Positions 20,066 to 28,982 of a DNA stretch of 64,000 bases are shown piece by piece. This DNA comes from Treponema sp. (GTDB lineage Bacteria > Spirochaetota > Spirochaetia > Treponematales > Breznakiellaceae). Where the stretch lies: positions 1-64,000 of the forward strand of contig WRLP01000005.1 in NCBI GenBank assembly GCA_009777535.1, written 5' to 3'. Under the pieces are notes generated by a model. That model saw only the letters and a program-made list of their open reading frames with translations. It had not been told where the DNA came from and did no database searches. Both the position numbers and the translations under genes were made by a program. The number at the start of each line of letters is the position of its first letter. The first letter of the stretch is position 1.

Positions 20066-21708
20066 CACCGGACAGCATTGTACAGTCTGTAGCCGCCGCT
20101 AAGGTTAAATGCATCAAACCCGTTTTGCGTTAGAATCCTGGCGGCTATGTAACTGCGCAGTCCGCTGTGACAGACGATATACACGGGTTTTGAGGGGTCC
20201 AGTTCCCCAAGCCGTTCCCTCAGGGAATCCAGCGGAATGTTTGTAAAGCCGTTCATGCCCTCATGTATGATTTCACCACGGGTGCGTACATCAAGAAGGG
20301 TAACGCTGCCGTCACGCGGCAGGGCATCAACATCATGCCAATGGAAACTTTTTGTTTTTCCGGTCAAAATATTTTCGATTACGTATCCCGCCATGTTTAC
20401 CGGATCTTTTGCTGATGAATAAGGCGGCGCATAACACAGCTCCAGGCGGGTAAGGTCTGCGGCTGTCATTCCGGCGCGGATTGCAGTTGCAAGAACATCG
20501 CAGCGTTTGTCCACGCCGTCATACCCCGCGATTTGGGCGCCGAGGATTTTCCCGCTCTCTTTTTCAAAAATAACTTTCATGGACATGGAGCTGGTGCCGG
20601 GGTAATATCCCGCATGACCTGTCAGCCAAAGGAAGGCCTTGTCATAATTCAGGGCAAGACGTTTGGCTGTTTTTTCGTTTATTCCGGTTGAAGCCACTGT
20701 CATGTCAAAGACCTTGATAACCGCCGAGCCCTGTGTACCGGTATATTCGGACTGAATGCCGCAGATATTGTCGGCGGCAATTCTTGCCTGCTTGTTTGCC
20801 GGGCCTGCCAGCGGAATCATGGCCGCCTGTCCTGTAACAAAATCAGTTACCTCGACTGCGTCCCCCGCCGCATAAATATCCGGATCGGAGGTAAGCATGT
20901 GCCTATCTGTTACAATGCCGCCGCGTTCGTTTACTTTTAAGCCGGCATCTTTTGCGAGAAGGCTTTCACTCCTGACACCGATGGCCAGAATCACCATATC
21001 CGCTTTTATGGATCCCTTTGACAGTTCAATGGACAGGCTATTGTTCTGCTCGATGATTCTTTGCAGTCCATTGTTAAGGTGAAGCGATACGCGATGCCGG
21101 CGCAGATGGTGATGCACATCACAGGCTATATCAATGTCCAGTGGGGCAATAACCTGATCAGATAATTCGATTATGCTCACTTCAAGGCCGGCTTCGCTTA
21201 AATTTTCGGCCATCTCAATTCCGATAAAGCCGCCGCCGACTACCGCCGCGCTTTTAGGGTGGTTTTTCTGTATGTACTCTTTTATTTTGTCAGTATCACT
21301 CATATTCCGCAGGGTAAAAACCTGTTCGGAATTGATGCCTTCAATCGGCGGCTTTATCGGCGCCCCTCCTGGCGACAGTAAAAGTTTGTCGTAACTTTCG
21401 CTGTATGTTTTTCCGGTACGCCTGTCTTTTATTTCAACCGTTTTTGACTCGCGATCAATGGATAGCGCTTCGCTTTGAACCCTAACATCAACATTGAACC
21501 GCCTGCGAAAACTTTCCGGTGTTTGCAGCAGCAAATCTTCACGGTTTGCGATACTGCCCCCTATGTAATAAGGCAGGCCGCAGTTGGCAAACGAGATATG
21601 CTCCCCGCGCTCAATCATGATGATCTCGGCGCTTTCATTCAGCCTGCGCAGGCGGGCTGCGGCAGTCGCTCCTCCCGCAACCCCGCCCACAATCAGAACT
21701 TTTTTCAT
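20062..21708 (-). CDS. CoA-disulfide reductase-like flavoprotein with rhodanese domain
   Basis: A 548-residue NAD(P)H-flavin oxidoreductase. Residues 1-440 hold the FAD site (VGGVAGGATAAARL), the active-site Cys in SFANCGLPYY (about residue 43), the NAD(P)H site (AAVVGGGFIGIEMAENL near 155) and a second FAD segment (DIYAAGDAVEV). A C-terminal rhodanese domain (about 455-548) has its Cys in VYIVCHSGLRS. This CoADR-Rhd type reduces CoA-disulfide, CoA-persulfide or polysulfide. It is the last gene of the oxygen-defence operon, six bases after the superoxide reductase gene, so it may also act as an electron donor or repair damaged thiols there. Confidence 0.88.
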   Translation of the reverse strand: MKKVLIVGGVAGGATAAARLRRLNESAEIIMIERGEHISFANCGLPYYIGGSIANREDLLLQTPESFRRRFNVDVRVQSEALSIDRESKTVEIKDRRTGKTYSESYDKLLLSPGGAPIKPPIEGINSEQVFTLRNMSDTDKIKEYIQKNHPKSAAVVGGGFIGIEMAENLSEAGLEVSIIELSDQVIAPLDIDIACDVHHHLRRHRVSLHLNNGLQRIIEQNNSLSIELSKGSIKADMVILAIGVRSESLLAKDAGLKVNERGGIVTDRHMLTSDPDIYAAGDAVEVTDFVTGQAAMIPLAGPANKQARIAADNICGIQSEYTGTQGSAVIKVFDMTVASTGINEKTAKRLALNYDKAFLWLTGHAGYYPGTSSMSMKVIFEKESGKILGAQIAGYDGVDKRCDVLATAIRAGMTAADLTRLELCYAPPYSSAKDPVNMAGYVIENILTGKTKSFHWHDVDALPRDGSVTLLDVRTRGEIIHEGMNGFTNIPLDSLRERLGELDPSKPVYIVCHSGLRSYIAARILTQNGFDAFNLSGGYRLYNAVRC

Positions 21709-27351: not shown

Positions 27352-27488
27352 GTTCAGGTTTGCCGGCGGAAGGAGGTTAACAGCTCCAAATAAGCGTTGG
27401 CAAAAAGAAATAATTTAAGGGGCACATCGTTTCCGGTGTTCAGGGCTTTAATTTTGTTCTGCAATGCATTATTATGACTTGTATATGA

Positions 27489-28444
27489 GGTGCCCTGTCG
27501 GGCGCCATAGATTGTCGGCGCGCGCTGGCCTTGCTAAAGCAAGTCCGCATTGTCGGCATACCGTGGATTCTATTGGCGCTACGACGTGCTAACGTGGTTG
27601 ATCCACGCCCTGTCGGGCGCTGTGTGTTGTCGGCGCACTGTCGGCATCCTAAAGGATGCCTTGCGTTTGGTCGTCGCAGCGGCATACAATGGTGCTACGA
27701 CGTGCTGACGTGGTTGATCCACGCCCTGACGGGCGCTGTGTGTTGTCGGGCGCACTGTCGGCATCCTAAAGGATGCCTTGCGTTTGGTCGTCGCAGTGGC
27801 ATACAATGGTGCTACGCTGTTTTGACCTTGTTCATCTACACCGCTTAACGCGGTGCGTTTTGTTTGTCGGCGCGCGCTGGCCTTGCTAAAGCAAGTCCGC
27901 ATTGTCGGCATACAGTGGATTCAATTGGCGCTACGACGTGCTGACGTGGTTGATCCACGCCCTGACGGGCGCTGTGTGTTGTCGGCGCGCGCTGGCCTTG
28001 CTAAAGCAAGTCCGCATTATCGGCATACCGTGGATTCTATTGGCGCTACGACGTGCTGACGTGGTTGATCCACGCCCTGTCGGGCGCTGTGTGTTGTCGG
28101 CGCGCACTGTCGGCCTCCTGAAGGAGGCCTTGCGTATGGTCGTCGCAGCGGCATACAATGGTGCTACGCTGTTTTGACCTTGTTCATCTACACCGCTTGA
28201 CGCGGTGCGTTTTGTTTGTCGGCGCGCGCTGGCCTTGCTAAAGCAAGTCCGCATTGTCGGCATACCGTGGATTCAATTGGCGCTACGACGTGCTGACGTG
28301 GTTGATCCACGCCCTGACGGGCGCCATAGATTGTCGGGCGCACTGTCGGCATCCTAAAGGATGCCTTGCGTTTGGTCGTCGCAGTGGCATACAATGGTGC
28401 TACGCTGTTTTGACCTTGTTCATCTACACCGCTTAACGCGGTGC
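27489..28444 (+). repeat. Mosaic array of 17 hairpins ahead of ssrA
   Basis: About 955 non-coding bases built from four unit types. Type A centres on CTTGCTAAAGCAAG (27530, 27882, 27997, 28234). Type A' centres on GGCATCC-TAAA-GGATGCC (27643, 27760, 28348; at 28112 both arms differ and still pair). Type B has CGTGG-TTGAT-CCACG and CGCCC-TGWC-GGGCG (CGCCC cores near 27606, 27722, 27958, 28073, 28310; partial at 27491). Type C has CACCGC-TTRAC-GCGGTG (27839, 28191, 28427). A-type and B/C-type units alternate strictly; A-type cores recur every 113-122 bp. C always follows A'. Units of one type are nearly identical. Frames stay open on both strands but lack ribosome binding sites. The array runs to 12 bases before ssrA. 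Confidence 0.9.
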
Positions 28445-28455
28445 CATTCTTTAGC

Positions 28456-28798
28456 GGGGGTGATCCGGTTTCGACTGGTACGGATCGGGGTACAGGCTGC
28501 AGGTGGAGCGCTCATCTCCTGATTGAGCAAAAATTTAACTGCCAACTACGACAGTTACGAATACGCCTTAGCTGCGTAATCGCGTGGAACCGTTCCGCCG
28601 CTCTGAGGGACGGCTTCCGCGTCGCAATCAGAGCTGGTCAGGCCGCCGCTTCCGGAGGCGGTTTGATAAGATTTCCCGGAATAAGGACAGGCCGCGCGCT
28701 GTTTAGCCAAGCCTGTTCCGACAAAATAATAAACAGCTAAACCTGTAGATGCTTGTGTTTCGCGTATTAGGACGCGGGTTCGACTCCCGCCACCTCCA
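28456..28798 (+). ncRNA. ssrA: tmRNA
   Basis: Transfer-messenger RNA rescues stalled ribosomes and tags their products for breakdown. The 5' end GGGGGTG pairs with CACCTCC at the 3' end; GATCCGGTTTCGACTGG at the start and GGGTTCGACTCCCGCC (T arm) near the end are diagnostic. The tag frame reads ANYDSYEYALAA then TAA (28531-28569), with the ALAA end recognised by ClpXP. The discriminator A is at 28798 and CCA is not encoded. Its promoter is unclear: TTGACC at 28410-28415, inside the last array unit, is a possible -35, but no good -10 follows. Confidence 0.97.
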
Positions 28799-28827
28799 GA
28801 GGCGTTCTTTCAAAACTGTGGCAATGG

Positions 28828-28944
28828 CAGAAATGTATGCTTGAAAATTTCATTTGGGGTCCTGCCTGTGGCCAAAAACACTGCGCGGGGGCAGCGTTTT
28901 TGCCACAGTCACCCCTCAAGAAATTAAATCAGCATACATTTCTG
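28828..28944. repeat. 117-bp near-perfect palindromic element
   Basis: A single long imperfect inverted repeat 29 bases downstream of ssrA. The outer arms CAGAAATGTATGCT (28828-28841) and AGCATACATTTCTG (28931-28944) match perfectly. The middle arms (AATTTCATTTGGGGT and ACCCCTCAAGAAATT) mostly match. The inner arms 28866-28884 and 28891-28908 pair except for one bulge and one mismatch around a GCGGGG loop. A further copy of the inner arm (ACTGTGGCAA, 28815-28824) could pair alternatively with 28900-28909. No target-site duplication or long T run is seen. It could be a MITE-like element or an unusual terminator. Confidence 0.75.
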
Positions 28945-28982
28945 AGCTTACACAGTTGTGCATCACATGAGGGAGGAGGCCT

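Follow-up and report, generated by a model that had tools for sequence, protein, structure and literature searches.

The Correia/NEMIS, ERIC, RUP, RPE and CIR elements are dispersed repeats of less than 200 bp which are non-coding or nearly so, form folded structures and are found with both filled and empty sites; Correia elements also carry promoter-like sequences (PMC2229807). REP, BIME and REPIN sequences with their RAYT transposases (PMC2817692, PMC3116915, PMC3733652) are likewise dispersed palindromic repeats, with a unit of 20-40 bp, mosaic arrangements and strong pairing, and alternating orientation is a feature of BIMEs (PMC2817692). In mitochondria, repetitive hairpin-forming or double-hairpin elements of up to 84 bp have been described, which occur as double-hairpin units and as tandem multi-hairpin blocks near tRNA and rRNA genes and show few complementary substitutions between copies (PMC2800124).

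Here, we describe a repeat unit, which will be referred to as the module, that forms an array next to ssrA in a Treponema sp. of the family Breznakiellaceae. The analysis covered a window of 64,000 nucleotides (assembly GCA_009777535.1, contig WRLP01000005.1, positions 1 to 64,000) and followed up a first-pass annotation of the array. The module shares with the Correia-type group its length of less than 200 bp, the lack of coding capacity, dispersal, folding and the occurrence of filled and empty sites. Unlike these elements, it lacks clear terminal inverted repeats and a general target duplication, its fold is a compound of three stems (P1, H1 and H2) rather than one long palindrome, and it is placed where stem-loops such as tRNA and tmRNA have their 5′ foot as well as in head-to-tail arrays. 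From REP, BIME and REPIN sequences it differs by its length of about 115 nt, by the uniform orientation of neighbouring units and by the absence of a Y1 match in its own genome. With its double-hairpin units and tandem blocks it resembles the mitochondrial elements, a likeness which is an analogy only; those elements are organellar.

Results

Anatomy of the array next to ssrA

Direct reading of the window clearly demonstrated all of the 17 hairpins that had been reported next to ssrA (27489-28443, plus strand; Table 1). They make up eight head-to-tail modules, each consisting of one hairpin H1 and one hairpin H2, preceded by one leading H2; the number of eight comes from a 47-contig draft assembly with modules 82-95% alike over long blocks and may be off. 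The final hairpin stops 12 nt short of ssrA. H1 has a TAAA or TGAA loop closed by C-G and occurs in two forms (A and A′), and H2 reads CGCCC-TGAC-GGGCG or CACCGC-TTAAC-GCGGTG (forms B and C among the H2 hairpins), followed by a T-rich tail. The strict alternation of hairpins described in the first-pass annotation is correct and results from the composite unit, because every module contributes one H1 and one H2. Form C was said always to follow A′, which is true for all three C hairpins, but A′ also precedes B once (module 2).

Successive module periods were 115, 116, 121, 115, 115, 122 and 115 nt. The repeat is thus periodic as stated before, with a measured range of 115-122 instead of 113-122 bp. 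None of the unit lengths (115, 116, 121 and 122) is a multiple of 3, in agreement with the view that the array is non-coding, and it was also rightly held not to be a CRISPR, since the spacers are repeated as well and the modules align over their full length. Two-module blocks of 236 nt recur at 95% identity within the array, and the mosaic order of hairpin forms is explained by duplication of two-module blocks. The H1 of module 6 is altered on both arms relative to module 3. Terminator-like hairpins numbered 15 in the array compared to 2.4 ± 1.7 in shuffled sequences, and the folding z-score of the whole array was -6.1.

Table 1. Features of the ssrA region in the window, with hairpin forms in their order along the array.
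Feature	Position	Strand	Forms	H1	H2	Evidence and remarks
Candidate sigma70-type promoter TTTAAT-17-TATTAT upstream of array	27447-27475	+				Matrix score 8.4; predicted
Leading H2 hairpin (3′ remnant of one more module)	27489-27506	+	B		27489-27506	Direct reading
Module 1, type 1	27512-27626	+	A-B	27530-27543	27606-27619	Covariance model R1, 27515-27624, 72.9 bits
Module 2, type 2	27627-27742	+	A′-B	27643-27660	27722-27735	R1, 87 bits; promoter-like TTGCGT-18-TACAAT at 27661-27690
Module 3, type 2	27743-27863	+	A′-C	27760-27777	27839-27855	R1, 117.7 bits (among the sequences building R1); promoter-like segment at 27778-27807
Module 4, type 1	27864-27978	+	A-B	27882-27895	27958-27971	R1, 77.9 bits
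Module 5, type 1	27979-28093	+	A-B	27997-28010	28073-28086	R1, 74.8 bits
Module 6, type 2	28094-28215	+	A′-C	28112-28129	28191-28207	R1, 114.3 bits (among the sequences building R1); promoter-like segment at 28130-28159
Module 7, type 1	28216-28330	+	A-B	28234-28247	28310-28323	R1, 76.7 bits
Module 8, type 2, abuts ssrA	28331-28455	+	A′-C	28348-28365	28427-28443	R1, 114.1 bits; promoter-like segment at 28366-28395
ssrA (tmRNA, tag ANYDSYEYALAA)	28456-28798	+				ARAGORN; Rfam RF00023, 164 bits
Separate long-hairpin host repeat, empty copy 3′ of ssrA	28815-28960	+				18 genome matches; empty/filled comparison

Copies in the genome and in relatives

A covariance model (R1) with 113 model positions was built from ten modules. 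Searching with a covariance model yielded 41 module copies in the own 2.77-Mb draft genome, several of them at contig ends. The case which the first-pass annotation had named as counting against its view, units that occur nowhere else, therefore does not apply. In the genus, 28 of 31 genomes contained copies, the highest number in one genome being 95, and in an order-wide draw of 119 genomes modules were confined to five genera of the same family. A complete genome of the family with a size of 4.1 Mb (G045) had one copy, which precedes tRNA-Leu (locus L110). The two named matches of a pattern scan were MAGs called Treponema sp., and two exact module patterns matched no viral contig. Where copies were read, neighbouring modules shared the same orientation in 47 out of 48 cases, and the repeating unit of head-to-tail arrays comprises the module together with a spacer.

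The module is a short, non-coding, multi-copy and dispersed repeat with filled and empty sites, as are elements of the MITE type. On present evidence a classical MITE was rejected, as clear terminal inverted repeats were not seen and target duplications are not the rule; for 169 of 208 copies, the longest exact match between inverted ends measured 3-5 nt. An attC integron array was also discarded, the RYYYAAC and GTTRRRY boxes being both present in only 2 of 208 copies.

In the literature searched on termite treponemes, no described repeat of this kind was found, and ten module-bearing loci compared with Rfam gave tRNA- or tmRNA-type and sub-threshold or chance matches only. Termite-leu is an RNA motif whose name suggests a link to leucine genes. 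This motif and other RNA motifs come from termite guts (PMC2864571, Rfam), the presumed source of module-bearing bacteria as well, but the array region (27400-28460) had no match in Rfam 15 up to E=5. So far, the module family is absent from Rfam and from the literature searched, and it is specific to one taxonomic family within the taxa sampled.

Fold and covariation

Among 140 distinct copies, 95.2% of the cells in P1 (GCRC with GYGC, enclosing H1), H1 and H2 were paired. Changed stem cells were two-sided in 539 and one-sided in 11 cases, counts which are inflated by shared descent of the copies and were obtained from an alignment fitted to the model. The covariation score of 0.536 compared to 0.126 after shuffling, no slid control came near, and the stem pairing was also recovered by an independent column analysis. 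G.U and A.C accounted for only 14 and 25 of about 2200 stem cells, respectively. The resulting G.U fraction of 0.6% contrasts with 8.8% for the tRNAs in the same loci, this fraction being the only one fairly comparable with tRNAs since ARAGORN omits mismatches. Leader copies, in which the module precedes a tRNA or tmRNA gene, and all other copies were alike in their low G.U content (0.86% in leader copies).

A structured RNA had been among the first proposals for the array. The fold is indeed strongly conserved, but the near absence of G.U argues for pairing that is kept at the DNA level. Such pairing might be maintained if the fold is recognised in single-stranded or extruded form, or if one arm is copied to the other. 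A pseudoknot, in which a middle helix would cross P1 (columns 50-51 with 75-76), was hinted at too weakly to be claimed. Some modules contain a further small hairpin within the H1 loop or arm (L071:2001-2126, L089:2001-2124 and L190:1403-1494).

Placement at the foot of stem-loops

Placement was evaluated for 213 non-identical copies with flanks; as these represent the better-scoring copies of few genomes, the following proportions are not genome-wide frequencies. In 34 copies, the module stopped -2 to 8 nt ahead of the 5′ end of a tRNA or tmRNA encoded on the same strand, and in seven it stopped 3-8 nt from the 3′ end of a tRNA encoded on the other strand. Few copies had their other end near a tRNA, and for 115 no tRNA was present within the fetched flank. 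Since the two arms of the acceptor stem pair with each other, the complement of the tRNA 3′ end resembles the 5′ end, and both tRNA placements obey a single rule: the module 3′ end is located at a stem foot. At L094, two modules precede a TPP-riboswitch-like sequence, which was recognised by eye and not reported by Rfam.

For copies away from tRNAs, a stem with a score of at least 6 started no more than 14 nt downstream in 13.8% compared to 3.2% of the controls (p=2e-6), and an unscored foot test requiring exact arms of at least 7 nt resulted in a weak excess (43% versus 30%). The stem-foot rule for these copies is an enrichment and not universal.

At six loci of the own genome (L071, L077, L080, L081, L086 and L089), fragments of the tRNA 3′ end recur as inverted copies on the downstream side of the tRNA, and nested hairpin repeats, modules included, lie between the copies. 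Palindromic repeats appear to have a second hotspot at tRNA 3′ ends.

Filled and empty sites

The long-hairpin host repeat found 3′ of ssrA is separate from the module and consists of 14-nt perfect outer arms and an inner hairpin. In seven distinct empty copies, GGCCAAAAA is followed by the inner hairpin within a base, whereas the copies at L090 and L092 carry a module at the foot of the inner hairpin; L093 and L074 also appear to carry one when read by eye. Alignment of an empty with a filled copy of the host repeat showed an exact insert of 119 nt that replaces one base without target duplication. This argument for mobility is weakened in that the filled host repeats could derive from a single insertion which was later copied with the host. 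Another larger repeat of the own genome contains three near-identical modules (L083, L084 and L085); its ends, CCACTAACCTCACGA and the complement, resemble terminal inverted repeats, and modules may hitch-hike in other elements.

Direct repeats of at least 9 nt around element groups numbered 18 compared to about 1 expected. Target-site duplication as a general rule was nevertheless rejected, as most of the long direct repeats represent the spacer of tandem units. At L094 and L099, direct repeats of 12-13 nt were observed without a full preceding module.

Modules are present in the ssrA leader of nine genomes of the genus, with one module in G016, G009, G036, G008 and G017, two to three in G007, G148 and G010, and eight in the strain described here; about 16 congeners have an ordinary leader with no module before ssrA. 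On the ssrA tree, which is poorly resolved, module presence needs 7 changes, as many as for shuffled labels. Orthologous tRNA-Leu(CAA) genes keep the module in four species, and tRNA-Leu(TAA) genes likewise in two genera, with 1 to 3 copies. This retention counts against pure transience, because a neutral passenger is not expected to persist in this way. The proposal of an element inserted beside ssrA holds in that an inserted repeat is present, but it does not represent what is left of an integrase-type element at an att site in the ssrA 3′ end, the modules being located 5′ of ssrA and likewise of many tRNAs. At L205 (G037), ssrA is directly preceded by 17 nt that match the module 5′ end (TGTCGGCGCACTGTCGG), whereas the remainder of the module is gone, possibly as an excision scar or by deletion.

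Discussion

The array probably represents eight copies and the 3′ remnant of a non-autonomous, fold-dependent mobile DNA repeat which enters 5′ of stem-loops and which, in the leader of ssrA, has been amplified locally in tandem. The mobile unit would comprise about 113-119 bp folding as P1, H1 (with a CTAAAG loop) and H2 with its T-rich tail. Its entry point would be the 5′ foot of tRNA acceptor stems, of tmRNA, of a TPP-riboswitch-like leader and of the hairpins of other repeats, with a hypothetical enzyme recognising the fold in single-stranded or extruded DNA. At ssrA, one insertion may have been followed by growth through block duplication, for example of modules 3-4 and 6-7. Placed before tRNA and tmRNA genes, modules would become a transcribed 5′ leader, to which some copies might supply promoters, and ssrA of this strain may start from several tandem promoters. 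Its leader may reach a length of about 975 nt, transcription may begin at several tandem starts, or both may apply, and a benefit of the array to ssrA expression is possible. It is conceivable, though rather doubtful, that the module stands for a new class of mobile repeats which recognise the 5′ foot of stem-loops (tRNA, tmRNA and hairpins) in single-stranded or extruded DNA, are moved by a hypothetical enzyme and have been turned into stackable promoter-leader modules in the leaders of stable RNAs.

An alternative, which we regard as unlikely, is a conserved cis-acting RNA leader that regulates or matures tRNA and tmRNA, for example by attenuation at H2, with dispersal being secondary. More than half of the copies analysed for placement (the 115 out of 213 with no tRNA in the fetched flank) are difficult to reconcile with such a function, as are those that face a tRNA 3′ end from the opposite strand, even though the precise abutment to mature tRNA and tmRNA 5′ ends and the strongly conserved fold would be expected from a leader RNA. 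The same is true for the near lack of G.U, which extends to the leader copies, and for the T-tail of H2, which is no different in leader and other copies. The module kept at orthologous tRNA-Leu loci across genera speaks for a leader function; the congeners doing without any module before ssrA speak against it. Finally, about one in three of the tRNA/tmRNA leader groups has a good sigma70-type promoter whose end lies 3-39 nt upstream of the first module, and modules there would therefore be transcribed leader, which speaks for this alternative.

It is less likely still that the array is a tandem promoter array, in which type-2 modules would act as promoter cassettes whose amplification raises ssrA expression, with type-1 modules as spacers. 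Modules 2, 3, 6 and 8 have TTGCGT-18-TACAAT after H1, and the motif TTGCNT-17/18-TAYAAT is found in register in these modules and in the ssrA modules of G010 and G008, but it is missing from the ssrA modules of G016, G009 and G036 and from the majority of copies in the family. The idea that every module has a sigma70 promoter was rejected, as only a subset has the segment. Considering all copies, a promoter-like segment after H1 with a score of at least 8 was enriched in leader copies (23% compared to 2.6% of the others and 6% of shuffled segments). In the window, however, the segments reach a modest score of 8.4, equal to that of the candidate upstream of the array, which in turn does not exceed the internal segments, and a strict promoter scan gave no promoter.

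The first-pass annotation had further suggested a BIME-like mosaic and a linked REP-type transposase. The array is a non-coding repeat mosaic, but not a BIME array: orientation is the same in nearly all neighbouring pairs instead of alternating, matches extend over the full 113 positions of the model compared to a palindrome of 20-40 bp, and no RAYT gene was detected in this genome. With regard to the REP tags GTAG and CGTC, reading of copies showed GCTAC (GTAGC on the other strand) in some of them only. More generally, movement of a REP/BIME or IS200/IS605-type non-autonomous element by a Y1 transposase (RAYT/TnpA) appears highly improbable. A two-hairpin, non-coding, dispersed unit with the fold of one strand conserved would suit such an enzyme, and Y1 genes are present in 18 out of 40 genomes of the genus. 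Their presence does not track module copy number across the genus, however, with no Y1 in the high-copy genomes G035, G018 and G001; PF01797 matched nothing in the own genome, which is 92.8% complete, and a module was found near only one of 23 Y1 loci. The search for Y1 genes in genomes and near module loci revealed no transposase or recombinase linked to module copies, which also counts against the mobile repeat favoured above, as does the lack of a clear terminal inverted repeat and of a general target duplication.

That real modules were merely given their number and order at ssrA by the draft assembly has hardly any probability, for in spite of the 47 contigs, the copies at contig ends and the long blocks of high similarity, the contig continues through unique sequence on both flanks, the modules differ by paired changes, and one to three modules occupy the same place in other species.

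If the module is a mobile DNA repeat as proposed, these bacteria would harbour folded DNA repeats that land at genes which form hairpins, and such a placement is undescribed for the repeat families compared here. The ssrA and tRNA leaders of the family, with 0 to 8 modules at one and the same gene depending on the species, would then constitute a natural experiment on the load of hairpins and possibly of promoters that the leader of a stable RNA tolerates. Covariation with almost no G.U offers a way of telling DNA-level from RNA-level structure by sequence alone.

Elsewhere in the window, at 21518-21686, Rfam reported a match to V_AS7, a Vibrio antisense RNA, with 92.1 bits at a cut-off of 90. 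The match is antisense to an oxidoreductase-like open reading frame and probably reflects coding conservation and not an RNA gene.
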